Of a stretch of DNA of 64,000 bases, positions 4,999-37,473 are shown one piece after another. The notes below the pieces were generated by a model. It was not told the DNA's origin. It saw only the letters and a program-made list of their open reading frames with translations, and searched no databases. Both the position numbers and the translations under genes were made by a program. Source of the DNA: Cupriavidus sp. WKF15 (GTDB taxonomy: Bacteria > Pseudomonadota > Gammaproteobacteria > Burkholderiales > Burkholderiaceae); the NCBI RefSeq assembly GCF_029278605.1, contig NZ_CP119572.1, forward strand, positions 2,232,001 through 2,296,000, in the 5' to 3' direction. Each line of letters begins with the position of its first letter. The stretch's first letter is position 1.

Positions 4999-6207
4999 AT
5001 GAACGATTCCGCATTATACGCGCACGCCCTGCCGCCTGGCCCCGTCGATCCGGATGCACCGCTCGGCCTTCTTGGTGGCATGACGCCCGCTGCATTCATG
5101 CGTGATATCTGGCAACGCAAACCGCTTCTGATTCGACAGGCATTTCCCGGAATCGTGCCGCCTGTGTCGCGCGAGGCGCTTTTGTCGCTGGCGGACCGCG
5201 ACGAAGTCGAATCGCGCCTGGTGACGCACTTCCGCAACAGGTGGAAGCTCGAGCAAGGGCCTTTTGCCACCGAAAACCTGCCGTCCCTCAAGACCAAACA
5301 GTGGACCCTGCTGGTGCAGGGTGTCAACCTCCATGATGCAGCCGCGGCGGACCTGATGGGCCAGTTCCGCTTTGTGCCCGACGCACGCCTGGACGACCTG
5401 ATGATCAGCTACGCCACCGACGGCGGCGGCGTCGGCCCGCACTTTGATTCCTACGACGTGTTTCTGCTGCAGGTTTCGGGCCGGCGCCGCTGGCGCATCT
5501 CGTCGCAGACGAAGCTCGATCTGCTGCCGAACCTCCCGCTGAAGATCCTGGCCGACTTCAGCGCCGAGGAAGAATGGATACTGGAACCCGGCGACATGCT
5601 CTACCTGCCGCCACAGTACGCACACGATGGCATTGCCGAAGGCGAATGCATGACCTGCTCGATCGGGTTCCGCGCCCCCGCCTATCGCGAGCTTGCCGGC
5701 CATTTCCTGGCCTGGCTCTCCGAAACGGTGGAAGACAACGAAGACCTCGGCGGCCGCTATGCGGACGCCGGCGAACGCGCGGCAAAGCATCCCGCCCAAC
5801 TGCCCGCGGGCATGGCAAAGGCGGTCGCGCAGCGTCTCAAGGCCCTGCAATGGAACAGCGCGATGGTGTCGGAATTCCTCGGCACCTATCTGTCCGAACC
5901 CAAGCCGACGGTCGAATTCGCGGAAGTGCCCGACATCCCGATGCGCCAGTACGCAAAGCTCGCGCGCACGCATGGCGTCGTGCTGGCACCGGGCTCGATT
6001 GCTCTATATGACGGCACCCATTTCTTCCTGAATGGCGAAGCTTATGAGCCTCCGCCCGAACTGGCGCGCTGGCTGCACAGATTGGCCGATTATCGGCAAC
6101 TCTCCGCTGCGGAAATCAAGGCATGCGCAGAACTGCCTGACCTGCTTGACACGTTCCATCACTGGACGCTGGAGGGCTGGCTGCAGTTGTCATCGGCGGC
6201 ACTGTAA
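4999..6207 (+). CDS. roxA: Cupin/JmjC ribosomal oxygenase RoxA (YcfD family)
   Basis: Family members are Fe(II)/2-oxoglutarate oxygenases. E. coli YcfD/RoxA hydroxylates an arginine of ribosomal protein L16. The 402-residue product shows the N-terminal block LLGGMTPAAFMRDIWQRKPL, the double-stranded beta-helix with the iron ligands H148, D150 (GGVGPHFDSYDVF) and H209 (QYAHDG), the R-R-R-W strand at 162-165, and a C-terminal winged-helix region, as in YcfD. ATG 4999 has no obvious ribosome binding site and its promoter must overlap slyD. ATG 5083 is possible, but the conserved LLGG upstream of it favours 4999. Confidence 0.88.
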   Translation: MNDSALYAHALPPGPVDPDAPLGLLGGMTPAAFMRDIWQRKPLLIRQAFPGIVPPVSREALLSLADRDEVESRLVTHFRNRWKLEQGPFATENLPSLKTKQWTLLVQGVNLHDAAAADLMGQFRFVPDARLDDLMISYATDGGGVGPHFDSYDVFLLQVSGRRRWRISSQTKLDLLPNLPLKILADFSAEEEWILEPGDMLYLPPQYAHDGIAEGECMTCSIGFRAPAYRELAGHFLAWLSETVEDNEDLGGRYADAGERAAKHPAQLPAGMAKAVAQRLKALQWNSAMVSEFLGTYLSEPKPTVEFAEVPDIPMRQYAKLARTHGVVLAPGSIALYDGTHFFLNGEAYEPPPELARWLHRLADYRQLSAAEIKACAELPDLLDTFHHWTLEGWLQLSSAAL

Positions 6208-8860: not shown

Positions 8861-9745
<885 letters not shown>

Positions 9746-19896: not shown

Positions 19897-20238
19897 TCAG
19901 TGGTGACCGGTGGCTGCGGGCGAGTTCGGCGGCGGCGGCAGCGGCGGCGTGGCGCTGACCTTGGGCGCCGGCGCGACGAACTGCACGAACACCTCGCCAT
20001 CCTTCACCATGCCCAGCTCGTAGCGGGCACGCTCCTCGATGGCACCCGTACCGTCCTGCAAGTCCTTCACTTCCCCCTCCAGCTTGGCATTGCGCAGCTT
20101 CAGCGTCTGATTGTGAGTGACCTGCTCCTCGACTTGCCGGTTCAGTTCCCAGACGCGCAGCCAGCCGCCCTTGCCGAGCCAGAGCGGATACTGGATGGCG
20201 AGCAACAGCACGAACAACAGCAAAGAAATCAGGCGCAT
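19897..20238 (-). CDS. ftsB: Cell division protein FtsB
   Basis: FtsB is a bitopic divisome protein that, with FtsL and FtsQ, links early and late division steps and helps activate septal wall synthesis. The 113-residue product has one N-terminal TM helix ([20 protein letters not shown]), then a coiled coil ([20 protein letters not shown] ... EGEVKDLQ), and the conserved [14 protein letters not shown] segment. The Pro-rich tail ([10 protein letters not shown]) extends beyond the E. coli protein. It lies 159 bp after eno on the same strand, the eno-ftsB pairing common in proteobacteria. ATG 20238 starts directly at the TM helix. Confidence 0.93.
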
Positions 20239-20397
20239 GAGGCGTGGCGGACAAAAATTTCCGCACAATGATGTGCGAACTCGGGCCGGAAGGCAATGCC
20301 GGCCAGATTTCGATACAAATCCGGATACAAAAACGGCGGCGGCACGGATCGAGTCCGTGCCGCCGCCGTCAGGGGCGCGTCAGGTGCCTGCGCTGGT

Positions 20398-21756
<1,359 letters not shown>

Positions 21757-21793
21757 TCACGCGCCCGGAAAAGGCAAAACAGGGCTTGCCGGC

Positions 21794-22087
21794 TCAGGCC
21801 GCGCCCTCGACCACGATCATGTTCATGCGCGCCGCATGCTCGCGTGCCTTGCGGGCAGCACGGTAGGCCTCCCCGTCATGGAAGGCCTTGGCGGCGTCGA
21901 AGCTGGGGAATTTCAGCACGACGACGCGGGTGGGCGCCCATTCCCCTTCAAGGTTCTCGGACTTGCCGCCGCGCACCAGCACTTCCGCGCCATGGATCTG
22001 CATGGCCTTGCTGGAGAGCACCTTGTATTCCTCGTACTGCTGGGGGTCCGTCACGTCGACGTAGGCGATGATATAGCCGGCGGCCAT
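21794..22087 (-). CDS. DUF1330 domain protein
   Basis: This 97-residue protein of the dimeric alpha/beta-barrel (ferredoxin-like) superfamily has GYIIAYVDVTDPQQYEEY, GAEVLVRGG and LKFPSFDAAKAFHDGEAY, the DUF1330 pattern. No enzyme activity is established for the family. It is inserted between kdsA (82 bp) and eno (106 bp) on the same strand. Confidence 0.85.
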   Translation of the reverse strand: MAAGYIIAYVDVTDPQQYEEYKVLSSKAMQIHGAEVLVRGGKSENLEGEWAPTRVVVLKFPSFDAAKAFHDGEAYRAARKAREHAARMNMIVVEGAA

Positions 22088-22169
22088 GCTGTATCTCCCG
22101 ATGTTTTGTATTGTCTTTCGATACGGTTTGTCACGGCCGGCCTAGCGGCAGTGACAAACCGGGGCCTGT

Positions 22170-23039
<870 letters not shown>

Positions 23040-23065
23040 GACAGTCTCCTGCTTGGCGCCCGGCT

Positions 23066-24745
<1,680 letters not shown>

Positions 24746-24846
24746 TTATACATGAGACCCCGTCCCCCGCAGGCCCGGAAATTTGTGACAAGCGCAGGCC
24801 GGCGGCCGGTCTTCGGCGCCTCTGCGGCGCATTCGCCGCTTGCGGT

Positions 24847-25653
24847 TCAGCGCCCGTCGCGCCGCATTCCGGCGATCAGTTCGCGGATCAGTTGCGCGGT
24901 CTCCTGCGGCCGCTCCATCGGGTAGAGATGGCCGCCTTCGATGAAGCGCAGGTTCTCGCCGACCAGCTTGCGCGTGGCGCCAAGTCCACATTGCCTGACC
25001 TCGCGTGATTTCGTGCCGGCCACGAAGCCGACCGGTACCGGCGCACCGCGCGCTACCTTGCGGCCCAGGCCGGTCGGCAGCGTGCGGTAGATCCAGTATT
25101 CCACCTCGCGGTTGAAGCGCAGCTGCCGCTCGCTGTCCTTGCCGGTCGGCTCGGTCCCATGCAGCGCATAGTCGCGCAGCATTTCCTGATCCCAGATCGC
25201 GAAGTTCGGTTTCGACCGGAAGTGCTCCCAGACCGCTTCGGCATCCGGCCAGTGCGTGCGCCGGTTTTTGGTCACCGCGGCGGGGCCCGGCTTCTCGTCC
25301 ATGCCGAGCATCTGCGCTGTCTTCAGCAACGACGCGCGCCAGCCCGCGATGATCGGCGAATCGAGCATCACCACGCCGCGCACCCACTCGGGGCGCCGCA
25401 GCGCGGCCATCAGCGACAGGAAGCCGCCAAGCGAATGCCCGACCAGCCATACCGGCTCGCGGTACTGGCGCTGCACCAGATCGAGCAGCTCCTCCACCAG
25501 ATGCGGCCAGCCGCGCGTCACCGGATATTCGGGCCGGTGCCCGTAGCGCTCGACGGCGCGGAACTCGAAATCGCCCTCGAGTTCGGCGAACAGCTTGCGG
25601 TAGGTCGGCACCGGAAAGCCATTGGCATGGGAAAAATGGATGATCTCGCGCAT
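24847..25653 (-). CDS. Alpha/beta hydrolase adjoining the Anbu operon
   Basis: This 268-residue alpha/beta hydrolase begins REIIHFSHANGFPVPTY. The nucleophile elbow is GHSLGG (S74), followed by MLDSPIIAGW, and the catalytic His is probably H242 in EGGHLYPMERP. The acid is expected near residues 210-220. Homologues are annotated only as hydrolases. The start at ATG 25653 is 13 bp after the Anbu stop, so the two are very likely co-transcribed. The hydrolase may therefore work with the Anbu/ATP-grasp genes, though it is not part of the usual core. Upstream in-frame residues overlap the Anbu end and look unconserved. Confidence 0.82.
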   Translation of the reverse strand: MREIIHFSHANGFPVPTYRKLFAELEGDFEFRAVERYGHRPEYPVTRGWPHLVEELLDLVQRQYREPVWLVGHSLGGFLSLMAALRRPEWVRGVVMLDSPIIAGWRASLLKTAQMLGMDEKPGPAAVTKNRRTHWPDAEAVWEHFRSKPNFAIWDQEMLRDYALHGTEPTGKDSERQLRFNREVEYWIYRTLPTGLGRKVARGAPVPVGFVAGTKSREVRQCGLGATRKLVGENLRFIEGGHLYPMERPQETAQLIRELIAGMRRDGR

Positions 25654-25666
25654 CGCCCCGCCCCGC

Positions 25667-26488
25667 TCAGTCCTGCGTGCGCGAACGCTCGCGCGTGGCC
25701 CGCACCGGCTGCCCCCAGCGGTCGGCCTCGTCCGTGCGCGCAAGCGGAAACTCGGCCTCGCGCGAGGCATCCCACTCCGGGTCATGGATCTCGCCGAACA
25801 CCTGGCGCAGGCGCTGGCCCCAGGTGTCGCGGATCATGCGGAAATAGGCGTTCTTCTCGTCGATGTTGACGAAGTGCGTGACCCGCAGCGTGTCGGCCTC
25901 GTAGACCAGCAGATCGAGCGGCAGGCCCACGGAGATGTTCGACTTCAGTGTCGAATCCATCGAGATCAGCGCGCATTTGGCGCCTTCGCCGAGCGGCAGC
26001 GACGGGTGCACCACGCGGTCGATGATCGGCTTGCCGTACTTGGCTTCTCCGATCTGGAAATAGCAGTTCTCGGGCGTGGCCTCGACGAAATTGCCGGCCG
26101 CGTAGACGTTGAACAGCCGCATGCGCTCGCCGCGGATCTGCCCGCCGAAGATCAGGCTCACATTGAACTCGATGCCGGCATCGCGCATCGCATGGGCATC
26201 GCGCTTGTGCACCTGGCGCACGGCATCGCCGACGATGGAAGCGGCCTCGAACATATCGCGCGCGGTCCATAGCGAGCGCTTCTCGTCGCGCCCCTCGACC
26301 AGGCACTGGCGCACCGACTGGCTGATGGCAAGATTGCCGGCGGTCAGCAGCACCATCACGCGGTCGCCAGGCTCTTCGAACACCGTCATCTTGCGTGCGG
26401 TGGAAATCGCGTCGACACCGGCATTGGTGCGCGAATCGGAAAGGAACACCAGGCCGGCATCGAGCCGCATGGCAACACAGTAGGTCAT
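25667..26488 (-). CDS. Proteasome-like peptidase Anbu
   Basis: Anbu ('ancestral beta subunit') is a bacterial relative of proteasome beta subunits and HslV, found to form open-ring or helical assemblies in other species. The 273-residue product begins M-T-Y-C, so removal of Met would expose Thr as an N-terminal nucleophile. The catalytic Asp lies in LSDSRTNAG (D18) and the Lys in TARKMTV (K33, counted with Met). VLLTAGNLAISQ and LIFGGQIRG follow the Anbu pattern rather than HslV. A 331-bp gap with a hairpin separates it from the upstream transglutaminase gene, the only large gap in the cluster. A TAGAAT-like -10 at 26526-26531 could give it its own promoter. Confidence 0.92.
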   Translation of the reverse strand: MTYCVAMRLDAGLVFLSDSRTNAGVDAISTARKMTVFEEPGDRVMVLLTAGNLAISQSVRQCLVEGRDEKRSLWTARDMFEAASIVGDAVRQVHKRDAHAMRDAGIEFNVSLIFGGQIRGERMRLFNVYAAGNFVEATPENCYFQIGEAKYGKPIIDRVVHPSLPLGEGAKCALISMDSTLKSNISVGLPLDLLVYEADTLRVTHFVNIDEKNAYFRMIRDTWGQRLRQVFGEIHDPEWDASREAEFPLARTDEADRWGQPVRATRERSRTQD

Positions 26489-26819
26489 GGTCTTGTCGTC
26501 GGAACCGTGCGGGGTTGCAGCGGGAATTCTAGCGCCCGCTGGCCTGCTGCGGGCGCCGGCATCACCGGTTTCGAGACAGTGTTCGGATTTCGATTTCGGG
26601 CAAGGCGCCCCGGACTGGCCCCGCTCAGCCGCCGACAGCGTGCCGGAGGGCCATCGCAGCTTCGACGAGAGGGTGGCAACGGCTTCGACGACGATATCGC
26701 CGGGATCCGTTACTGCTGTGCGAGCCATTGCCGCGCACGCCCACCGCCAAGCTGGTGAAACACCTGCTGCGCACCGCCCAGGTGACGTGCCGCACCTGCA
26801 TGGTGCGGCACGCATCACA
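26489..26819 (-). other. 331-bp gap between transglutaminase and Anbu genes
   Basis: No credible reading frame was found here. The region holds a strong hairpin next to the transglutaminase stop (26786-26812) and a weak TAGAAT -10 candidate (26526-26531) with no clear -35. Base composition is close to that of the flanking genes, so decayed coding sequence cannot be excluded. Confidence 0.5.
26786..26812. terminator. Strong hairpin after the transglutaminase gene
   Basis: The perfect 11-bp arms cgtgccgcacc and ggtgcggcacg are separated by a 5-base loop, starting 8 bases after the transglutaminase stop on the minus strand. There is no T-run. It could attenuate or process the operon transcript before Anbu. 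Confidence 0.5.
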
Positions 26820-27695
26820 TCAGTCGGTCACGGGGATGATGGCGATATTGACTTGCAGGGTCTCGCCGCTGCCGCCTTCCAGGATGCCCCGGACCGGTGC
26901 CGCGGACTGGTAGTCTCGTCCCACGGCCAGGCGAACGTGCCGGTGGTCCGTGACGCAACGGTGCGTGACGTCGATGCTGCACCACAGGTCGCGGCTGGCA
27001 TCCAGGCAGACATCCGTCCAGGCATGGCTAGCCAATTCGGTCGCAGCCGGATCATAGAAGTATCCGCTCACGTAGCGCGCGGGGATGCCGAAGGCGCGGC
27101 AGGCCGCCACCATCACTTGCGCCTGGTCCTGGCATACGCCGCTGCCCAGTTGAAATGCCTCGGCGGCAGATGTACCGACGTGCGTCGTGTTGGCCGCATA
27201 GCGCACGCGTTCGGCGATGCCATCGGCCAGCGCCAGCAGCGCCGGCACCTCGTGCCCCGCCGCCAGAAATGGCGCGGCGAAAGCCTGCATCTCCCGCGGG
27301 GCCGCGGTGAGCGGCGTACCGCCGATGAAGTACAAAGGCGACACGCGCGCTTCACCCGCCATGGGTGCATCGCGGAACGCATGGGGGCCGTCGCGTTCCG
27401 CGCCTTCGTTTCCTCGAGTGACGTGCACCTCACCGATCGCGGTGATCGCGATCTTATTGGCCGGCCCGCTGACGGTGAAGTTATGGACGATATTGCCGAA
27501 GCCGTCACGCGCCTCGGACAGGTTGCCAGGCGCCTGCAGCTCCCAGGCCTGCACGGCCTGCAGCGGACCCGAGCGCGGCGCGAGCCGCAGTTCGTGCACG
27601 CTGCGCCGCACCGGCTCCGCGTAGCGGTAGACGGTCTGGTGATGGATCTTGTATTTCACGGTGTCAGGAGTGCCGCTGCGACGACTGCTGCGCAT
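26820..27695 (-). CDS. Transglutaminase-like cysteine protease family protein
   Basis: This 291-residue protein has the bacterial transglutaminase N-terminal beta domain (YKIHHQTVYRYAEPV ... ELRLAPR) and a transglutaminase core with a Cys-His-Asp triad at C188 (GSGVCQDQAQV), H224 (SHAWTDV) and D242 (SIDVTHR). In this genomic setting such proteins are thought to be peptidases or transamidases acting on peptide products. The ATG at 27695 has AAGAGG five bases upstream; GTG 27659 would start at the conserved KYKIHHQ and is the main alternative. It follows the alpha-E gene by 33 bp. Confidence 0.9.
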   Translation of the reverse strand: MRSSRRSGTPDTVKYKIHHQTVYRYAEPVRRSVHELRLAPRSGPLQAVQAWELQAPGNLSEARDGFGNIVHNFTVSGPANKIAITAIGEVHVTRGNEGAERDGPHAFRDAPMAGEARVSPLYFIGGTPLTAAPREMQAFAAPFLAAGHEVPALLALADGIAERVRYAANTTHVGTSAAEAFQLGSGVCQDQAQVMVAACRAFGIPARYVSGYFYDPAATELASHAWTDVCLDASRDLWCSIDVTHRCVTDHRHVRLAVGRDYQSAAPVRGILEGGSGETLQVNIAIIPVTD

Positions 27696-27728
27696 GGCCG
27701 CCTCTTGGGTCGCGCGGCGGCTGCTCCA

Positions 27729-28682
27729 CTAGGCTGCCATCAGCGGCACCAGGAAGTCACGGCTGATGCCGTTGCCGATGTCGCCGATGCGCTCGAGGAA
27801 GCTCGTCAGGAAGGCGTGCAGCCCGACGGCAAAAATGTCGTCGATGCGGGCAAATTTCAGGTCGGCATGCAGTTTACCAGCCTGCCGCTCGGTCTCGTCC
27901 GAGTGCTGGTTACCGACCAGCGCCAGGATGGCCACGACCTCGTCCATGCTGGACACCAGCGAGCGCGGCATGTCCGGCCGCAGGATCAGTAGTTCGGCCA
28001 CGCGCTGCGGCGTGATGACGGCGCGGTAGACCTTGCGATAGACCTCGAAGCCCGATACCGAGCGCAGCACCGCTGCCCAGTGGTAGAAGTCGTTCTGCTC
28101 GCGGTTGGGATCGCTGTCGTCGCTGCCCGAGGACTGGAACTTCACGTCGAGAATCCGCGCGGTATTGTCGGCACGCTCGAGGAAGGTGCCGAGCCGCATG
28201 AAGTGAAACGCGTCATCCTTCAGCATCGTGCCGAACTGCACGCCGCGCGCCAGGTGCGAACGGAACTTGACCCACTCGAAGAAGCGCGACGGGTCGTCCT
28301 GCAACTCGCCGTCCGCGATCATGCGCTGCACGTCGAGCCAGGTGGTATTGACCGTCTCCCAGACCTCGGTGGTAAGCGAGCCGCGCACCGCGCGCGCGTT
28401 CTCGCGCGCCGCGCGCAGACAGCTCATGATCGACGACGGGTTGGTCATGTCGCGCACCATGAAATCGATCACGTCGTCGCGCGTGAGCAGTCCGTACTTG
28501 TGGTCGAACGCGCTGGTCAGCTCGGAGATGTCGAGCATGGCCCACCAGCCCTGCTCCGCCACCTCCGCGGACTGCGGCAGCAGCGAGGTCTGGTAGTTGA
28601 CGTCCAGCATGCGCGCGGTATTTTCGGCGCGCTCGGTATAGCGGGCCATCCAGAACAGATGGTCGGCGGTGCGGCTCAGCAT
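27729..28682 (-). CDS. Alpha-E domain protein (DUF403)
   Basis: This 317-residue all-helical protein begins LSRTADHLFWMARYTERAEN, the signature of the alpha-E family. These proteins occur almost only next to circularly permuted ATP-grasp genes and are thought to act with them, possibly as a scaffold or acceptor; no reaction is established. The sequence is full-length, with no membrane segment or signal peptide. It starts 37 bp after the ATP-grasp gene. Confidence 0.93.
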   Translation of the reverse strand: MLSRTADHLFWMARYTERAENTARMLDVNYQTSLLPQSAEVAEQGWWAMLDISELTSAFDHKYGLLTRDDVIDFMVRDMTNPSSIMSCLRAARENARAVRGSLTTEVWETVNTTWLDVQRMIADGELQDDPSRFFEWVKFRSHLARGVQFGTMLKDDAFHFMRLGTFLERADNTARILDVKFQSSGSDDSDPNREQNDFYHWAAVLRSVSGFEVYRKVYRAVITPQRVAELLILRPDMPRSLVSSMDEVVAILALVGNQHSDETERQAGKLHADLKFARIDDIFAVGLHAFLTSFLERIGDIGNGISRDFLVPLMAA

Positions 28683-28719
28683 GGTAGTTCTCCTCGCAAT
28701 GCGGTCGTGGGCGGTGCGT

Positions 28720-30195
28720 TCAGCGCTCCAGCACCCAGGTGTCCTTGGTACCCCCGCCCTGCGAGGAATTCACCACCAGCGAGCCCTCGCGCAGCGCCAC
28801 GCGCGTGAGCCCGCCCGGCACCATGCGCACCTCGCGCCCCGACAGCACGAACGGGCGCAGGTCGATATGGCGCGGCGCGATGCCCGATTCCACATAGGTC
28901 GGACACGTGGACAAGGCCAGCGTCGGCTGCGCGATGTACTGCTCGGGCCGCGCCTTCACCACCTCGCGGAAGGTATCGATCTCCGCGCGCGTCGCCGCCG
29001 GCCCCACCAGCATGCCGTAACCGCCCGCGCCGTGCGTTTCCTTGACGACCAGGTCGGCCATGTTGTCGAGCACGTACTGCAGGTCGTCGGGACGCCGGCA
29101 CATATAGGTCGGCACGTTGCTGAGGATTGCCTCTTCGCCAAGGTAGAAGCGGATCATGTCGGGCACGTACGGGTAGATCGACTTGTCGTCGGCCACGCCC
29201 GTGCCGATGGCATTACAGATGCTCACATTGCCCGCGCGGTAGACCGACAGCAGCCCCGCCGCGCCGAGCGAGGAATCGTGCCGGAACACGAGCGGGTCGA
29301 GGAAGTCGTCGTCCACGCGCCGGTAGATCACGTCGACGCGCTGCGGGCCCTGCGTGGTGCGCATGTACAGGTGCTCGTCCTCGACGAAGAGGTCGCTGCC
29401 TTCCACCAGCTCCACGCCCATCTGCTGCGCGAGGAAGGCGTGCTCGAAGTACGCCGAGTTGTACATGCCCGGCGTCAGCACCACCACGGTCGGATCCGTG
29501 ATCGCCTGCGGCGAGACCCCGCGCAGCATGTCCAGCAGCAGGTCGGGATAGTGGGCAACCGGCGCCACGCGGTTACGCGCAAACAGGTCGGGGAACAAGC
29601 GCATCATCATCTTGCGGTTCTCGAGCATGTACGACACGCCCGACGGCACGCGCAGGTTGTCCTCGAGCACGTAGAACTCGCCCTCGCCGGCACGCACCAC
29701 GTCAATGCCCGCCACGTGCGCGTAGATGTCGCGCGGCACGTCCACGCCGAGCATCTCGGGCCGGTACTGCGCGTTGTTGTAGATCTGGTCCGGCGGGATC
29801 ACGCCGGCGCGAATGATGTCCTGCCCGTGGTAGATGTCGTGGATGAACCGGTTCAGCGCCGCCACGCGCTGGCGCAGGCCTTTCTCCAGCGTCGCCCACT
29901 CGCTGGCCGGGAAGATGCGCGGGATCACATCGAACGGAATGGTCCGCTCGGTGCCGCTGTTGGATTCGTCCTTGTCGCCGTAGACCGCGAACGTAATGCC
30001 CACGCGGCGGAAGATCAGGTCCGCCTCGGCGCGCTTGTTGGCCATGGTGTTCCCGGACTGGCGCGCCAGCCAGTCCGCGAAGTGCCGGTAGTGTGGCCGT
30101 ACCAGGCCGCCCGGCAATGCCTGCCCCGCCTGGATGACGGTATTCCTCTCGTCATCCCGCCAATCCAGCATCTCGTCGAAAAAACGCGCCGCCAT
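28720..30195 (-). CDS. Circularly permuted type 2 ATP-grasp protein
   Basis: This 491-residue protein of the DUF404/DUF407 type is a predicted carboxylate-amine ligase that would form an amide or peptide bond using ATP. Segments seen are the N-terminal RRVGITFAVYGD, PFDVIPRIFPASEW, VLEDNLRVPSGVSYMLENR (nucleotide/metal binding), VDVIYRRVDDDFLDPLVF, and the glycine-rich loop VVKETHGAGGYGMLVGP, with a final SSQGGGTKDTWVLE. It is the first gene of the operon (ATP-grasp, alpha-E, transglutaminase, Anbu, hydrolase). The promoter should lie in 30196-30335. Confidence 0.92.
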   Translation of the reverse strand: MAARFFDEMLDWRDDERNTVIQAGQALPGGLVRPHYRHFADWLARQSGNTMANKRAEADLIFRRVGITFAVYGDKDESNSGTERTIPFDVIPRIFPASEWATLEKGLRQRVAALNRFIHDIYHGQDIIRAGVIPPDQIYNNAQYRPEMLGVDVPRDIYAHVAGIDVVRAGEGEFYVLEDNLRVPSGVSYMLENRKMMMRLFPDLFARNRVAPVAHYPDLLLDMLRGVSPQAITDPTVVVLTPGMYNSAYFEHAFLAQQMGVELVEGSDLFVEDEHLYMRTTQGPQRVDVIYRRVDDDFLDPLVFRHDSSLGAAGLLSVYRAGNVSICNAIGTGVADDKSIYPYVPDMIRFYLGEEAILSNVPTYMCRRPDDLQYVLDNMADLVVKETHGAGGYGMLVGPAATRAEIDTFREVVKARPEQYIAQPTLALSTCPTYVESGIAPRHIDLRPFVLSGREVRMVPGGLTRVALREGSLVVNSSQGGGTKDTWVLER

Positions 30196-30335
30196 GATGG
30201 CCCTTCCCTCCGTGAAATTGGGGGGCGTCCTGGTCGCCTGGCCTGCCGGCCTCCCACCGGAATCGCCGCCCCCTTGTTTTCCTGGCTATACAGCTGTCGA
30301 GTGACTGGCCCTTTCAGCATACCTGCGCCAGCGAA

Positions 30336-30355
30336 AGCCGCAAGTCCTTGCGGCT
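30336..30355. repeat. Inverted repeat upstream of the ATP-grasp operon
   Basis: The arms agccgcaa and ttgcggct are perfect complements around a 4-base gtcc centre. The repeat lies about 140 bp before the ATP-grasp start and 65 bp after the gntK stop. It is either an operator for the operon or a second hairpin ending the gntK transcript. Confidence 0.4.
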
Positions 30356-30385
30356 GCGCAGCACGGAAACGGGATTAGCAAGATG

Positions 30386-30407
30386 CCTGCCAGCGTCGTG
30401 GCAGGCG
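30386..30407 (-). terminator. Hairpin downstream of gntK
   Basis: The perfect 8-bp arms gcctgcca and tggcaggc flank a 6-base loop, starting 13 bases after the gntK stop. On the minus strand it is followed by atcttgct, which is only weakly T-rich. Confidence 0.5.
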
Positions 30408-30420
30408 GCGCGCCGGAGGG

Positions 30421-30927
30421 TCAGTGCGCGACCTTGACGCGGTGCCGTTCGCCGTCGTCGAGGATGGCCTGCACCAGCGCTTCCGGCGACTGCCGGATAT
30501 CGAGCACGAGCGCGCCGCGGGGCTCCTCGAGCGTTTCGAGCTGGCTCTGGAGCAGCGCCGGGTTGAAGAAGTGGTCCGTGCGCGAGGACAGGCGCGAGCC
30601 AATCAACGCCGCATCGCCCTTCATGTAGACAAAGGTCACGCCGCCATCGGGCGGCGTCAGCCGGTCGCGGTACGCCTGGCGCAGCGCGGAGCAGCTGAAC
30701 ACATGGGTGCGGCCCTCGGCCCGGGCGGCGTCGATCGCGGCACGCATGGCCGCGAGCCACGGCCAGCGGTCTTCGTCGGTGAGCGGGATGCCGGCGTGCA
30801 TCTTGGCTTTGTTGGCAGCGCTGTGAAACTCGTCCGCGTCATGGAATGCGCAGCCCAGGCGTTCCGCCAGCATAGCGCCAACCGTCGACTTGCCGCTGCC
30901 GGAAACGCCCATCAGGATATAGATCAT
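30421..30927 (-). CDS. gntK: Gluconokinase
   Basis: Gluconokinase phosphorylates gluconate to 6-phosphogluconate, the substrate of Edd encoded just upstream. The 168-residue P-loop kinase has the Walker A sequence GVSGSGKST at residues 7-15, DADEFHSAANKAKMHAGIPL (substrate lid), CSALRQAYRDRL and the arginine segment SRTDHFF. This is the short GntK/IdnK type. ATG 30927 has GGAG five bases upstream; upstream in-frame Met codons give unconserved residues. It is on the same strand as edd, 135 bp downstream of it. Confidence 0.95.
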   Translation of the reverse strand: MIYILMGVSGSGKSTVGAMLAERLGCAFHDADEFHSAANKAKMHAGIPLTDEDRWPWLAAMRAAIDAARAEGRTHVFSCSALRQAYRDRLTPPDGGVTFVYMKGDAALIGSRLSSRTDHFFNPALLQSQLETLEEPRGALVLDIRQSPEALVQAILDDGERHRVKVAH

Positions 30928-31062
30928 GTCTGCTCCATCGATCATGGTGTCGGATGGTTTGCCCCATCCTTGTCGGTAGCCTCGCGCCGGCATGCGGCGC
31001 GCAGGGGCCCGGCCGGCGGCTGGCGCCGGCCAGGGAATCGGGTGAAACGGGCCCTGGCCCGG

Positions 31063-32958
31063 TTATTGTGCGACGGAATGCGCGGCCACGGCAGTTCCAT
31101 GCGTGGCCGCGGCGGGAACGGCATCCGCCTCGGACAGGTCAAGTGCGCTGCCGCCCTCTTCCGCCTTGCGCGCGTGGCGGCGGAACAGGCCGAACAGGCC
31201 GCGGCCCACGCTGAACTGCGCGAACGCGTCGGCCGGGGCCTGCGCCACCGGGCGCGCGGCGAACTCTGCCGGATCGCCAAGCCAGGCCAGCGTGCCGGTC
31301 ACAGCATCCACGCGCACCCGGTCGCCGTCGCGCACGCGCGCGAGCGGGCCGCCGGCCAGCGCCTCGGGGCCAACGTGGATCACCGCGGGCACCTTGCCGG
31401 ACGCGCCGGACATGCGCCCGTCCGTGACCAGCGCCACCTGGTGGCCGGCATCCTGCAACGCACCAAGCACGGGCGTGAGGCGGTGCAGCTCGGGCATGCC
31501 ATTGGCATTGGGCCCCTGGAAACGCACCACGGCGACTACGTCCCCGTTCAGCTCGCCCGCCTCGAAGGCGGCCTGCAGCGCCTCCTGCGAATCGAACACG
31601 CGCGCCGGCGCCTCGACCACGCGGTGTTCCGGCGCCACGGCGGACACCTTGATCACGCCGCGCCCCAGGTTGCCCTGCATCAGGCGCAAGCCGCCTTCGG
31701 CCGAAAACGGCTGCGCGACCGTGGCCAGCACCTGCGCGTCGCCGCTGGCGCTCGCGCCGTCGCGCCAGCGCAGCACGCCGTCGGCCAGCACCGGCTCCTG
31801 CATGTAGCGCGCCAGGCCGGGACCGGCCACGGTCTGCACGTCTTCGTGCACGAGCCCGGCCTCGAGGAGCTGGGCGATGACATAACCGGTGCCGCCCGCC
31901 GCATGGAAGTGGTTCACGTCGGCCGAGCCGTTCGGATAGACGCGCGCGAGCAGCGGCGTGATCCGCGACAAACGGTCGAAATCGTCCCAGTCGATCAGCA
32001 CGCCCGCCGCGCGTGCCATGGCAACCAGGTGAATGGTGTGGTTGGTGGAACCGCCGGTGGCCAGCAGGCCGACCATCGCATTGACGACGGCGCGCTCGTC
32101 GACGATGCGTGCCATCGGCAGGTATTCGCCCCCACGGGCCGACAGCGCCAGCGCGCGCTGCGCCGCCGCCGCGGTCAGCGCGTCGCGCAGGCCGCTGTCC
32201 GGGTGCACGAAGGCTGCGCCGGGCAGGTGCAGGCCCATGATTTCCATCAGGAACTGGTTGCTGTTGGCGGTGCCGTAGAAGGTGCAGGTGCCGGCGCTGT
32301 GGTAGGCCTCGCACTCGGCTTCGAGCAGGGCCTCGCGGCCGACCTGGCCGGTGGCGTAGAGCTGGCGCACGCGGGCTTTTTCCTTGTTCGGCAGGCCGCT
32401 CGCCATCGGCCCGGCCGGCACGAACACGACCGGGAGGTGGCCGAACTGCAGCGCGCCCATCACCAGGCCCGGCACGATCTTGTCGCACACGCCGAGCATC
32501 ACCGCCGCATCGAAGGTATTGTGCGACAGCGACACCGCCGTGCTCATGGCAATCGCATCGCGCGAGAACAGCGACAGCTCCATGCCGGGATTGCCCTGCG
32601 TGATGCCATCGCACATGGCCGGCACGCCGCCAGCCACCTGCGCCACGGCGCCGACCGCGCGTGCCGCCTCGCGAATCACGCCAGGGTAGCGCTCGTATGG
32701 CTGGTGCGCGGACAGCATGTCGTTGTAGGCCGTCACGATGCCAAGGTTCGGCGCATGTTCCACGCGCAGCTTGAGCTTGTCGTGCGCCGGCAGCGCGGCA
32801 AAGCCGTGGGCCAGGTTGGCGCAGGACAGCCCGCGCAGCGGACCCAGCTCGGCCTGCGCCCGCTCGCATCGCGCCAGGTATGCCCGCCGGCTGGCTTGGC
32901 TGCGCTCGGTGATGCGTTGGGTCACGGCAAGGATTTCGGCATGGACGGCGTGGGGCAT
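31063..32958 (-). CDS. edd: Phosphogluconate dehydratase (Entner-Doudoroff)
   Basis: Edd dehydrates 6-phosphogluconate to KDPG, the defining step of the Entner-Doudoroff route that is the main sugar path in Cupriavidus. The 631-residue IlvD/Edd-family protein carries a labile Fe-S cluster. Cys-containing signatures are [12 protein letters not shown] and [13 protein letters not shown], with [14 protein letters not shown] near the C-terminus. The KDPG aldolase gene (eda) is not in this window. The promoter region faces an RpiR-type regulator gene across two palindromic operators. Confidence 0.97.
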
Positions 32959-33005
32959 GGCTGAAGGTTCCTGTTGGAGGTCCGGGAAAACCGAGTCCCT
33001 GGACT

Positions 33006-33020
33006 TGTAGATTTTCTACA
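33006..33020. promoter_or_regulatory. RpiR/HexR-type operator 1 (edd side)
   Basis: The palindrome tgtaga-ttt-tctaca lies 48 bp upstream of the edd ATG. It matches the second site at 33146-33160 in both arms, and its form (TGTAG...CTACA) is like operators of RpiR-family sugar regulators such as HexR. Confidence 0.75.
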
Positions 33021-33119
33021 TTATAACGACACACGAATCATCCAGGCAGCCTCGTTCACATCACAAATCGCTCATATCCACAGAAATCCGGGAAATTCCT
33101 AGCGCACCCAAAGGGCAAT

Positions 33120-33136
33120 CTATCGCTATTCGATAG
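33120..33136. repeat. Inverted repeat between the two operators
   Basis: The arms ctatcg and cgatag are separated by 5 bases and lie 8 bp before operator 2. It may be an additional regulatory element or a chance repeat. Confidence 0.35.
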
Positions 33137-33143
33137 CAGCATC

Positions 33144-33162
33144 AATGTAGAATATCTACATT
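33144..33162. promoter_or_regulatory. RpiR/HexR-type operator 2 (regulator side)
   Basis: The palindrome aatgtaga-ata-tctacatt has 8-bp arms and lies 32 bp upstream of the regulator's ATG. Paired with operator 1 (centres 140 bp apart), it suggests co-regulation of edd and autoregulation. Confidence 0.75.
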
Positions 33163-33194
33163 CACGATCTTGCCCGCGACACGCCGCCACCCTC

Positions 33195-34124
33195 ATGCGC
33201 GACCGAATCCTTGCCGTCTACGACACGCTCCGCCCTTCCGAACGCCGCCTGGCTGACTATGTGGCCCGCCATGGCGCCAGCGTGATCCGGCTGTCCATGC
33301 CGGAGCTGGCCGAGCGCGCCGGCGTGTCGCAGCCGACCATCGCACGCTTCTGCGCGGCGCTGGGCTATGACGGCTTCCGCGAATTCAAGCTGCAGTTCGC
33401 GCAGAACGTGGGCGGCGGCACGCCTTTCGTCCACCAGGACGTGAAGCCCGACGATGGCCCGGCGGACATTGCCGGCAAGGTGTTCGACCGCACCATCGCC
33501 ACGCTCATGAGCGTGCGCAATGCGCTGTCGGCGGACCAGGTCGAGCATGGCATCCGCCTGCTGGCCGCCGCGCGCCGGATCGAGTTCTATGGCTGCGGCA
33601 ATTCCGGCATCGTGGCGCTCGATATCCAGCACAAGTTCTTCCGCCTGGGCATGCCCACCACGGCCTACTCGGACCCGCATGTCTTCAGCATGTCCGCCGC
33701 GCTGCTCGGGCCGGGCGATGTGGCCGTACTGGTTTCCAACAGCGGCCGCACCTGGGACATGCTGACTGCCGCCACGCTGGCGCGCGCCAGCGGCGCGAGC
33801 GTGCTGGCGCTGACGCATAGCGGCTCGCCGCTGGCGAAGCTGGCCGATGTCTGCGTATTCTCGGACGTGGAAGAGGACAGCGAGGTCTATACCCCCATGA
33901 CCTCGCGCATCAGCCACCTCGTACTGGGTGACGTGCTCGCGGCCGGCGTGGCGCTGGAACGCGCCGATACCGTCGCCGCGGGACTGCAGCGCGCCAAGGC
34001 CCATTTGCGTGAGCGGCGCATCGGCGGCGCTGAGCCGGCGCGGGCCCCGCAGGAAGCCGATGCGCCGTTGCCGCCTGCGAGACCCAAGGCCGCCACACGA
34101 ACGCGCACTCGCACAACGAGCTGA
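33195..34124 (+). CDS. MurR/RpiR family transcriptional regulator, HexR-like
   Basis: This 309-residue regulator has an N-terminal HTH of the RpiR type (AERAGVSQPTIARFCAALGY, about residues 40-59) and a central SIS sugar-phosphate-binding domain (YGCGNSGIVALDIQHKFFRLG ... VLVSNSGRTWDM). HexR proteins of this family sense KDPG and control edd, zwf and related genes. The divergent edd and the two shared palindromes make that role likely here. The C-terminal tail from about residue 275 is low-complexity, rich in Pro, Ala, Arg and Thr, and not part of the fold. It ends 12 bp from the convergent comEC stop. Confidence 0.88.
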   Translation: MRDRILAVYDTLRPSERRLADYVARHGASVIRLSMPELAERAGVSQPTIARFCAALGYDGFREFKLQFAQNVGGGTPFVHQDVKPDDGPADIAGKVFDRTIATLMSVRNALSADQVEHGIRLLAAARRIEFYGCGNSGIVALDIQHKFFRLGMPTTAYSDPHVFSMSAALLGPGDVAVLVSNSGRTWDMLTAATLARASGASVLALTHSGSPLAKLADVCVFSDVEEDSEVYTPMTSRISHLVLGDVLAAGVALERADTVAAGLQRAKAHLRERRIGGAEPARAPQEADAPLPPARPKAATRTRTRTTS

Positions 34125-34136
34125 CAGCGTAACCGG

Positions 34137-36548
34137 CTATCTCGGCGCTTCCGGAGCTTCGCGCCAGTAGCGACGCTCCGACTGGCGGAACGCCTCCAGC
34201 GAATAGCCTTCGCCATGCGTAGCCATGGTGACCGCACCGGTTTCGTCGGTGCGATAGCGCAGGATGCCCGCGCTGCCATAGCGCTCCCACACTTCGGCGC
34301 GCGGATGCTGGTAGCGGTTGCGGTAGCCAAGCTGGAAAACCGCCGCATCGGGCCCGACCGCTGCCAGCCACGCGGGACTGGACGATGTGCCACTGCCATG
34401 GTGCGGCACCACAAGGACTTCGGCGCGCAGCAATTCCGCGGGCAGCCGGTCGGCCAGCTCGCGCTCCTCCGTCCTGCCGATATCGCCGGTCAGCAACAGG
34501 CTGTGGCGGCCATTGTCAATGCGCAGCACGCAGCTGCGCGCATTGCTGCCGATTCCGGCATCGCCGGACTGCTCCACCGCCGGATGCAGCACGGTGAACA
34601 GCACGCCATCCCACTCCCAGTGCTGACCTGCGCCACACGGCACCCATTGCGCCTTGCCGAGCAGTGCGTGCCCTGGCGGCGCGGCGGTTGATCTGATATC
34701 GACCGGCACGGCTTCCAGGACGTGCTGGGCCCCGCCTGCGTGATCGATATCCTCGTGACTGACCATCAGATGGTCGAGCCTGCGCACGCCGGCCGCGCGC
34801 AGGTGGGGCACGACGACCTGCGCTCCGGCGCTGCCTCCCGAGGCATAGGCAGGTCCGGCGTCATAGAGCAAGGCATGCGCGCGCGTCTGCACCAGTACGG
34901 CGGTGCCCTGCCCCACGTCAAGCATCACCGCGCGGAATTCTCCGGGCGCGACCTCATCGCCGCGCGCGAGCAGCATGGGAAGGGTCAGCAGCAGCCCATG
35001 CAGCCGTATGCGCAGCCCGAACATTGCCGGCACCAGCAGGACGAGCGTGCCCAGCAGGGCCAGCGCCGTCTCCAGCGCGCCGGCCTGCGCCGTTTCCCAG
35101 ACCGCCCACCCGGGAGATGCCAGCCATTGCAGCAGCACCACCAGCCACGCCAGTGCCTGATGCGCAAGCGCCAGCAGCGGCCCGGCCAGGATCGCCGGCA
35201 ACACCGCGCCCAGCAGTGCCAGCGGCGTGACCAGCATGCTGACGACGGGAATGGCCACGGCATTGGCAAGCGGGGAAATGACGGGAAACTGCCGGAAAAG
35301 CAGCAGCGTAAGCGGCACCAGCCCGACCGTGACCGCCCATTGCGTGCGTGCCGCGGCGGCCAGCGAGGCGCGCAAGCGCGGCCAGAAACCGCGCACAGGC
35401 GCTTCCGGTCGCGCCGCCGCCAGGAAGATCACGCCGACCGCGCCGAACGACAGCCAGAAGCCCGGCAGCATCACCGCCCACGGGTCCAGCAACAGCGCAG
35501 CCAATGCCGCCCACGCAAGCACCATCGACGCCGGCGGCGTGCGCGCGCCCCAGGCCGCGAGCGCGGCCATCGACAACATTGCGACAGTGCGCAGCGCAGG
35601 GATCTGCAGCCCGGCAATGAGCCCGTAGCCCAACCCTGCCAGCACAGCCGCCACCAGCGCCGCCTGCCGCGCCGGGCACCGCAACGGCAACGGCCGGCGC
35701 AAGCAGCGCCCCAGGCCGAAGGAGTGCCGCCACGCCCAGTGCGCCAGCCCCGCGGCCATGCCGGCGATCATGGTGATGTGCAGCCCTGAAATACTGACCA
35801 GGTGACCGACGCCGGTTCGGTTGAACAGCAGCCAGTCTTCGCTGTCGATACCGCGCTGGTCGCCGACCACCAGCGCAACCAGGACCGCGGCAAAACGCGA
35901 GTCAGGCGGCAGTGCGGCGCGAATGCGGTCGCGCAGCGCCGCGCGTTGCGCCTCGATGCGCCACGCCAGGCGTTCGCCAGCCGCATCCTTCGGTCCGTCG
36001 CGCACGCCGCGCACATAGCCCGTCGCGCCATAGCCTTGCGCCAGCAGCCAGTATGCATAGTCGAAGCCGTGGGGGTTCGCCAGCCCGCGCGGACGACGCA
36101 AGCGCACCGTGAACGCATAGCGCTGGCCTGGCCGCAATTCGGGGGGCGCTTCGCGCCAGTTCAGGACAATACGGCCCGGCACGCGCTCGCCGCGTGGCCC
36201 AGCCTCGACCGTGAAGGCAAAGCGGGCGCCCGGCGCCAGTTCCGCGGGCAAGCCGGAGACCACGCCCCTCACCTCGATGTCGCGCGCCTCGAGCCGCGTC
36301 GCCAGCCAGTCATCCATGCGCAACTGTGCGCGCCACGCGGACCAGCAAAAGCCCACGGCAAGCCCAAGCAGCACGGCCACCAGCCGCGCTGGCCAGCTTG
36401 CGGGCCGGTGCGGGAGCCGCGCGACCGCCAGCGCGATCACGGCAGCCAGCAAGAGCGCCACCATGCCCAGCAGGCCCGTTGCCGGCACGGTGCCCTGCCG
36501 CTGCAAGGCCCAGCAGCCAGCCACGAAACCCAGCAGGATCAGGCGCAC
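34137..36548 (-). CDS. comEC: DNA internalisation protein ComEC/Rec2
   Basis: ComEC is the inner-membrane channel through which single-stranded DNA enters during natural transformation. The 803-residue product has an N-terminal DUF4131 region with TM helices, a central competence domain with many TM segments (LVSISGLHITMIAGMAAGLA ... LGYGLIAGLQIPALRTVAML), and a C-terminal metallo-beta-lactamase domain with MVSHEDIDHAGG and VPHHGSGTSSSP, thought to act as the nuclease. It is the last gene of lolC-lolD-tatD-comEC, 70 bp after the TatD-family gene. Confidence 0.93.
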   Translation of the reverse strand: MRLILLGFVAGCWALQRQGTVPATGLLGMVALLLAAVIALAVARLPHRPASWPARLVAVLLGLAVGFCWSAWRAQLRMDDWLATRLEARDIEVRGVVSGLPAELAPGARFAFTVEAGPRGERVPGRIVLNWREAPPELRPGQRYAFTVRLRRPRGLANPHGFDYAYWLLAQGYGATGYVRGVRDGPKDAAGERLAWRIEAQRAALRDRIRAALPPDSRFAAVLVALVVGDQRGIDSEDWLLFNRTGVGHLVSISGLHITMIAGMAAGLAHWAWRHSFGLGRCLRRPLPLRCPARQAALVAAVLAGLGYGLIAGLQIPALRTVAMLSMAALAAWGARTPPASMVLAWAALAALLLDPWAVMLPGFWLSFGAVGVIFLAAARPEAPVRGFWPRLRASLAAAARTQWAVTVGLVPLTLLLFRQFPVISPLANAVAIPVVSMLVTPLALLGAVLPAILAGPLLALAHQALAWLVVLLQWLASPGWAVWETAQAGALETALALLGTLVLLVPAMFGLRIRLHGLLLTLPMLLARGDEVAPGEFRAVMLDVGQGTAVLVQTRAHALLYDAGPAYASGGSAGAQVVVPHLRAAGVRRLDHLMVSHEDIDHAGGAQHVLEAVPVDIRSTAAPPGHALLGKAQWVPCGAGQHWEWDGVLFTVLHPAVEQSGDAGIGSNARSCVLRIDNGRHSLLLTGDIGRTEERELADRLPAELLRAEVLVVPHHGSGTSSSPAWLAAVGPDAAVFQLGYRNRYQHPRAEVWERYGSAGILRYRTDETGAVTMATHGEGYSLEAFRQSERRYWREAPEAPR

Positions 36549-36618
36549 GAGGCTTTCCCGGCAAGTCCAGAGGGCCTTCGTTGTACCCTCTCGCTATCGG
36601 GAAAAGCTTGTCAGCGCG

Positions 36619-37473
36619 TCAGGAGTTGTTGTCGGACGGGTTGCTGCCCGCTGGCGCCATCGTGTCCGCGAATGCGCCCAGGCGCGGCAGCGCCGCGACC
36701 GAATTGCGCCACATGGCCTGCGCCAGCGCGGGCGGCTCGAGCCCGCGCAATTCGCCCAGCACGCGGGCGACGCCGGCCACTTCGGCCGGCGTATTGCGGG
36801 CCTTGTGCTGCTCGCCGAACTGGTCATCGGACAGCCAGGCCGGGGCGATGTCCGGCGCATCGGTTTCCAGCACCAGCGCATCGAGCGGCAACTCGGTGGC
36901 CAGCCGGCGGATCTGCCGCGCACGGCTGAAGGTCAGGTTACCGCCAAAGCCAAGCCTGAGCCCCTGGTCGATAAAGCGGCGCGCCTGCTCGTGGCTGCCG
37001 TTGAAGGCGTGGGCAATGCCCTGCCGCACGCCCAGCTTGCGCAACTGCGCGCAGACCGGGTCCTGCGACTTGCGCACATGCAGCAGCACCGGCAGGTCAA
37101 ACTCGCGCGCGATCTTCAACTGCTCGATATACAGCCAGGTCTGATGTTCGGCATCCAGGCCGGCGACGAAGAAATCAAGACCGATCTCGCCGATGCCGAC
37201 GAAGCGCGGATCATCGATCGACGCCGCCACCTCCCGGCGCAAGGCATCCACATCAGGCTGCGCCGCGCCCGCCGAGCACAGCGGATGGATCCCGAGCGCA
37301 TAGACGCAGCGTGAGTCCTGCCGCGCCAGCGCACGTACCGTGTCGAAGTTCCACACCGCCACGGCAGGCACCACGATACCGGTCACGCCGGCAGCCTCGG
37401 CTGCGTCGGCGACCATGCTACGGTCGCCGTCGAACTCGCTGGCGTCGAGATGGCAATGGGTGTCGATCCACAT
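36619..37473 (-). CDS. TatD family metal-dependent hydrolase
   Basis: This 284-residue TIM-barrel metallohydrolase has MWIDTHCHLDASEFDGD (the metal His pair), GEIGLDFF, the conserved PVLLHVRKS, AFNGSHEQ and LVLETDAPDIAP. TatD-family proteins are DNases or D-amino-acyl-tRNA deacylase-like enzymes; the particular substrate cannot be fixed, and YjjV/YcfH-type is equally possible. It follows lolD by 14 bp. Confidence 0.9.
   Translation of the reverse strand: MWIDTHCHLDASEFDGDRSMVADAAEAAGVTGIVVPAVAVWNFDTVRALARQDSRCVYALGIHPLCSAGAAQPDVDALRREVAASIDDPRFVGIGEIGLDFFVAGLDAEHQTWLYIEQLKIAREFDLPVLLHVRKSQDPVCAQLRKLGVRQGIAHAFNGSHEQARRFIDQGLRLGFGGNLTFSRARQIRRLATELPLDALVLETDAPDIAPAWLSDDQFGEQHKARNTPAEVAGVARVLGELRGLEPPALAQAMWRNSVAALPRLGAFADTMAPAGSNPSDNNS

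Follow-up and report, generated by a model that had tools for sequence, protein, structure and literature searches.

The Anbu operon, in which genes for an ATP-grasp ligase, an alpha-E protein and a transglutaminase accompany that of the proteasome-like peptidase Anbu, is described in two accounts that both cite Iyer et al. (2009) (PMC6376114; PMC5666114). As far as these accounts treat it, the system has no settled substrate. Both report upregulation of Anbu in nitrogen-limited P. putida, and one of them gives Thr, Asp17 and Lys32/33 as the catalytic residues and includes expression of the Anbu of Ralstonia eutropha (= Cupriavidus necator) (PMC6376114). In B. cenocepacia H111, the cluster I35_5080-83 was reported to be sigma-54- and NtrC-dependent (PMC5491218).

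Here we describe an Anbu locus of Cupriavidus sp. WKF15 (genome of 7.4 Mb in 3 contigs), located in a stretch of 64,000 nucleotides (contig NZ_CP119572.1, positions 2,232,001 to 2,296,000; hereafter the window), in which a gene for an alpha/beta hydrolase follows Anbu. The Anbu set itself is already known; what is new is a conserved sigma-54-type element and the reconstructed gene neighbourhood. We consider it likely that the set lies beside an independent hydrolase, the two being neighbours by inherited gene order in an old comEC-to-pyrG neighbourhood, that in Cupriavidus the ATP-grasp, alpha-E and transglutaminase genes are under sigma-54 control, and that Anbu and the hydrolase are on a partly separate transcript in this lineage. 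The hydrolase thus appears as a long-standing neighbour, without support for a role in the Anbu system.

The Anbu gene set and the adjoining hydrolase

The five genes are the following.

28720..30195, minus strand: circularly permuted ATP-grasp ligase gene (ATPg; Pfam PF14403, E 3e-168, and PF04174)
27729..28682, minus strand: alpha-E protein gene (Pfam PF04168, E 2e-101)
26820..27695, minus strand: transglutaminase-like Cys protease gene (TG) with C188/H224/D242 (Pfam PF08379 and PF01841)
25667..26488 (from the MTYC start), minus strand: Anbu proteasome-like peptidase gene with T2/D18/K33 (PDB matches)
24847..25653, minus strand: alpha/beta hydrolase gene with S74, H242 and an invariant D98 (PF12697, alignment and structure model)

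An earlier note on this DNA had read the first four as the known Anbu set with intact catalytic residues, and the fifth as a possible undescribed component of the system. Its gene order and gaps of 37, 33, 331 and 13 bp agree with the open reading frame (ORF) list, and the residues it named (T2/D18/K33 of Anbu, C188/H224/D242 of TG, S74/H242 of the hydrolase) are present in the translations. The assignment of the four genes was likewise borne out by Pfam, by solved Anbu relatives and by the published gene order. Although scans of the Anbu protein against Pfam and NCBIfam returned no match, residues 1/2 to 234-240 aligned with five solved sequences (5loy, 5nyw, 5nyj, 5nyf and 5lox; E 4e-92 to 5e-61), three of them named 'Anbu' and two 'peptidase'; T2, D18 and K33 correspond to the Met-Thr start, Asp17 and Lys32/33 (numbered from the Thr). 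The closest Anbu relative is that of C. yeoncheonensis (96%). For ATPg, the single solved relative at E ≤ 1e-5 was 3n6x (E 3e-216). All five genes look as if maintained by selection, given dN/dS values of 0.04-0.27 against seven relatives.

The locus shares with the published Anbu operon the same four genes in the same order and intact catalytic residues, and differs in the hydrolase after Anbu, in the 331 bp that split Anbu from the other three genes, and in its comEC-pyrG site. With I35_5080-83 it has in common DUF404/407 (ATP-grasp), DUF403 (alpha-E) and transglutaminase-like genes as well as a sigma-54-type element; unlike here, that cluster includes a large transglutaminase-domain protein, and the name 'Anbu' does not occur in the main text of the report (PMC5491218). 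A literature search found no title on a hydrolase together with Anbu, most subscription journals lying outside that search. As a separate observation, some Anbu sets in relatives (L047, L049, L124, L126, L133 and L135) had no TG match between alpha-E and Anbu.

Linkage and co-occurrence of the hydrolase with Anbu

We followed the hydrolase in three samples: an order sample (399 genomes), the window's family (f1, 150 genomes) and a Comamonadaceae-like family (f49, 80 genomes). These overlap and share genomes, so that they are not independent, and group labels used here (Comamonadaceae-like f49, Oxalobacteraceae-like f8, Ralstonia-like g176, Polynucleobacter-like g2) are inferred. A presence cut-off of E ≤ 1e-30 was passed by 77 of the 399 order-sample genomes, 56 of the 133 with any match being dropped as weaker; in f1, two of 104 hydrolase rows were dropped before counting (G476 partial, G413 distant).

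In f1, both genes were found in 70 genomes (27 adjacent, 43 apart), the hydrolase only in 32 and Anbu only in 27 (Fisher p 0.15). The corresponding f49 numbers were 54 (32 adjacent), 9 and 12, with neither gene in 5 (p 0.16). Within the window's genus, 14/14 sampled genomes had Anbu and 12/14 the hydrolase, which followed Anbu in 12/12; the match ends were separated by 16-124 bp in 11 of these and by 748 bp in one. The comparison across Burkholderiales that the earlier note had proposed thus reveals adjacency beyond one genus. The note would have taken the hydrolase for a mere neighbour if it were adjacent in few related genomes and transcribed separately; with linkage in 27/70 and 32/54 genomes the first of these is not what was found, and the two may therefore be expressed together or be connected more loosely in function.

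Membership in the Anbu system is a different matter. Hydrolase genomes free of Anbu numbered 32/150, 9/80 and 19/399 in f1, f49 and the order sample, and the reverse case occurred in 27, 12 and 141 genomes. Joint loss, as expected of a component, was not seen: of the seven f49 genomes devoid of Anbu and ATP-grasp, five kept the hydrolase. By comparison, Anbu and ATP-grasp occurred together in 65 f49 genomes, Anbu only in 1, ATP-grasp only in 7 and neither in 7 (p 8e-6, or 3e-5 after moving G543, which matches ATP-grasp only through a 35% paralogue). The two lay ≤ 10 kb apart in just 11 of these 65 genomes; co-occurrence even at a distance therefore supports a real functional tie between them. 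Where this hydrolase did not adjoin Anbu, the next gene after Anbu was an alpha/beta hydrolase in 0/10 loci scanned, out of 27.

An inherited order between comEC and pyrG

Two further genes mark the neighbourhood.

23066..24718, minus strand: pyrG (CTP synthase), a recurring neighbour of the hydrolase (Pfam and synteny)
34137..36548, minus strand: comEC, which precedes the hydrolase in relatives that have no intervening block (PF03772 and synteny)

Surroundings were read for 74 of the 77 order-sample hydrolase loci (G163, G288 and G125 were left out). Anbu was directly upstream in 14, and comEC lay upstream in 12, adjoining in 10 and at 1.3 and 3.2 kb in two. The other 48 had no Anbu, comEC or pyrG match nearby; comEC copies that have diverged may have escaped this search, and contig ends truncate a few of the loci. 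The order comEC-hydrolase-pyrG without Anbu, which also speaks against a component, was found in non-Cupriavidus genera of f1 (L010, L011 and L012) and in f8 (L013, L017, L018 and L020), with one extra gene or ~1.1 kb between hydrolase and pyrG in L013, L018 and L020; comEC was also upstream in two of three named Rugamonas/Duganella loci (L106 and L107). Of the 18 named hydrolase loci, 15 are from Cupriavidus and all show Anbu-hydrolase-pyrG, but are uninformative on hydrolase absence because they were retrieved with the hydrolase as query. Away from comEC and pyrG, no constant partner gene emerged among the neighbours scanned (eight ORFs, three without a Pfam match and some perhaps in the wrong frame), which included DsbD, GGDEF/EAL, hydroxyisobutyrate-dehydrogenase-like and metallo-beta-lactamase-fold genes; a TG-core gene adjoining the hydrolase in L021 had no further match at E 1e-8 across the sampled loci.

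The full order comEC-ATPg-alpha-E-TG-Anbu-hydrolase-pyrG-kdsA-eno was present in Ralstonia-like loci (L108-L110) and in L112 (g175), the latter with only partial comEC, Anbu and hydrolase matches, and L111 (g161) differed by having no kdsA match. Parts of it recur more widely. The Polynucleobacter-like L135 has comEC-ATPg-alpha-E-Anbu-pyrG with neither hydrolase nor TG, G387 (L049, f20) has comEC-ATPg-alpha-E-Anbu, two Cupriavidus loci (L113 and L114) have Anbu-pyrG without the hydrolase, and in f49 we found MutS-Anbu-hydrolase-pyrG (L038, L137, L139 and L140) and MutS-Anbu-pyrG (L144). The order thus recurs, and the Anbu side and the hydrolase side have each been retained separately. We infer that an ancestor of several Burkholderiales families had comEC-[Anbu genes]-hydrolase-pyrG, and that lineages lost or moved either part. 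In an Anbu tree, the genes at the Ralstonia/Cupriavidus site formed one clade (15 rows, support 96/84), those of f49 a second (17 rows, including three of f10 and f46; support 96/99) and the unlinked operons of other f1 genera another.

A sigma-54-type element ahead of ATPg

Sigma-54 promoters follow the consensus GG-N10-GC with TGGCAC/TTGCA-like boxes. One such site lies ahead of the Anbu set.

30377..30392, minus strand: sigma-54-type -24/-12 element TGGCAGGCATCTTGCT, preceding ATPg by 182-197 bp, with one mismatch to TGGCACN5TTGCW

The mismatch is in the -24 box, and the sequence otherwise fits the promoter consensus. Matches with ≤ 2 mismatches occur in the window at chance level (31 observed versus 37 expected), and a stricter pattern missed the site, so the case for the element rests on its conservation. 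With a relaxed pattern (sixth base free), a match ≤ 300 bases upstream of ATPg was found in the window and in 21/21 Cupriavidus relatives that have ATPg (22/22 loci), embedded in a poorly conserved spacer; these counts are not independent because the loci are related. Elsewhere it preceded ATPg in 0/4 Ralstonia-like and 6/22 other loci, on a background of 0.006 per region. Upstream of alpha-E, TG, Anbu and the hydrolase, the relaxed pattern was absent from all 273 regions, 84 of them from Cupriavidus. The presence of the element before ATPg and its absence before the other four genes therefore point to nitrogen control. A simple pattern found no NtrC-like sites upstream of the element. In Cupriavidus, sigma-54 would probably activate the ATPg/alpha-E/TG unit under nitrogen shortage, which offers a concrete condition under which to seek the product of the system, in the laboratory strain C. 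necator H16.

The gap between TG and Anbu

Two features separate TG from Anbu.

26489..26819, minus strand: 331-bp gap with putative remnants of a larger insertion (three pieces matching C. laharis L093)
26785..26813, minus strand: GC-rich hairpin of 12 bp right after the TG stop, without a T run (folding energy)

The pieces match L093 collinearly at 5029-5130 (87%), 6126-6199 (78%) and 9056-9149 (96%). In C. laharis the insertion measures 4.1 kb and carries genes for an AMP-binding ligase and for an acyl-CoA dehydrogenase, both on the opposite strand, whereas its TetR gene is on the same strand; C. numazuensis (L091, 5811-9165) has 3.3 kb in this gap with dehydrogenase-like and TetR-like ORFs (judged by eye). 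The in-order matches therefore suggest that the window's gap is a deletion scar, most likely of the insertion still found in C. laharis, and that Anbu and the hydrolase were separated from the other three genes in an ancestor; consequently, the two may be transcribed apart from them in this lineage. A second copy of the gap sequence was not found in the genome itself. The hairpin has a folding energy of -28.9 kcal/mol (53-nt piece; z -2.4), equally low in 4/200 shuffles, and no terminator-like site was picked up in a simple scan of the minus strand. In Cupriavidus sp. UYMMa02A (L094, 1-9100), 9 kb before Anbu contain regulator-, acyl-CoA-dehydrogenase- and PHA-synthase/phasin-like ORFs (by eye).

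The hydrolase protein

The alpha/beta hydrolase fold is indicated by a PF12697 match above cut-off and by matches of the structure model (pLDDT 95.7). S74, H242 and D98, the last 24 residues after S74, are invariant in an alignment of 43 orthologues. D98, after strand 6, is probably the acid of the triad, a position at which the partners in five PDB alignments examined have Ser. The protein would be an independent, probably cytosolic serine hydrolase with a small acyl ester, thioester or amide as predicted target. Two familiar names were rejected: BioH pimeloyl-ACP methyl ester esterase, a label some sources give to homologues (TIGR01738, 24.8 bits versus a cut-off of 206.95), and MenH (TIGR03695, 21.1 bits versus 208.55). 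No substrate is implied by the resemblance to E-2-(acetamidomethylene)succinate hydrolase (3kxp, 22% identity) or to the acyl-CoA hydrolase MpaH' (7dbl/7dbi, 16%).

Weighing the explanations

We favour inherited order: the Anbu set lies in a housekeeping neighbourhood of long standing, flanked by comEC on one side and hydrolase-pyrG-kdsA-eno on the other, and the hydrolase would adjoin Anbu through this order and may share a transcript with it. Several observations weigh against this reading. The spacing of Anbu and hydrolase is often tight, with match ends 2-194 bp apart in f49 and 16-22 bp apart in 7/12 genomes of the window's genus. Co-occurrence is positive in the order sample (both 58, hydrolase only 19, Anbu only 141, neither 181; p 5e-7, uncorrected for kinship and genome size), where 14 of the 58 genomes have the genes adjacent. 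In all 32 f49 pairs (e.g. G264, often MutS-Anbu-hydrolase) ATP-grasp is present but never ≤ 10 kb from Anbu. The comEC-site Anbu genes of L135 and L049 fall outside the Ralstonia/Cupriavidus clade, and the tree backbone is compatible with a single or a repeated origin of the adjacency. As to sigma-54, the first passes, with a stricter pattern, gave 0/28 comEC-site loci, missing the window site, 7/20 others and, over 700 bases, 11/46; the relaxed one was adopted only after the one-mismatch match in the window had been seen.

The spacing in two families, the order-sample association and the f49 pairs are what would be expected if the hydrolase served the Anbu system as an accessory enzyme: with esterase, thioesterase or amidase activity, it would complete or remove the ATP-grasp product and be dispensable in some lineages. 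Such a role is quite improbable given the Anbu-free hydrolase genomes in all three samples, the five genomes that retained the hydrolase without Anbu and ATP-grasp, and the 48/74 order-sample loci in which the search showed no Anbu, comEC or pyrG match near the hydrolase. The distant ATP-grasp of the f49 pairs nevertheless keeps a pairing of Anbu and hydrolase alive: in an old functional Burkholderiales pair, Anbu would release, and the hydrolase further cleave, a small acylated ATP-grasp/alpha-E product, which would explain why f49 has Anbu beside the hydrolase with ATP-grasp elsewhere; we regard this as very improbable. With L135 and L049 placed apart from the main clade and a backbone that fits one or several origins, the Anbu genes may instead have become neighbours of the hydrolase in separate events, one in the Ralstonia/Cupriavidus line and one in f49, whether by chance or for the sake of joint expression. 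The separate supported clades of the two groups and of the unlinked f1 operons, with L135 and L049 in neither group's clade, and the unlike upstream genes (comEC versus MutS) fit this; partial copies of one order in G387, the Polynucleobacter-like G513 (comEC-ATPg-alpha-E-Anbu-pyrG) and the f49 loci L038, L137, L139 and L140 make it somewhat unlikely. The suggestion of the earlier note that the five genes are transcribed together and serve a single pathway can draw on their common strand, the 37-, 33- and 13-bp gaps and the negative outcome of the simple terminator scan. It is distinctly unlikely in view of the 331-bp gap with its GC hairpin after TG, the ORFs on both strands of this gap in C. 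laharis and C. numazuensis, and a sigma-54-type element before ATPg only; the gap, hairpin and sister-species insertions also bear on whether the four-gene set is a single operon. With inherited order as the preferred explanation, a tempting extra component is probably just a neighbour, and the search for the Anbu substrate stays focused.

Additional features

Between comEC and the hydrolase, Cupriavidus loci carry a regulator, an edd-like and a gluconate-kinase-like gene, followed by ATPg, alpha-E, TG and Anbu. The first three occupy this block in the window (gene names inferred):

30421..34124, mixed strands: block between comEC and ATPg in Cupriavidus loci (Pfam and synteny)
33195-34124, plus strand: RpiR-family regulator (Pfam)
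31063-32958, minus strand: edd-like dehydratase (Pfam)
30421-30993, minus strand: gluconate-kinase-like gene (Pfam)

The block had no match in Ralstonia-like loci. An Rfam scan of 20000-37000 gave zero families at gathering score. The host genome contains a second ATP-grasp match (G000:C1:107590-109014, 33% identity) within an 898-aa open frame, a length like that of fused ATP-grasp/alpha-E proteins.

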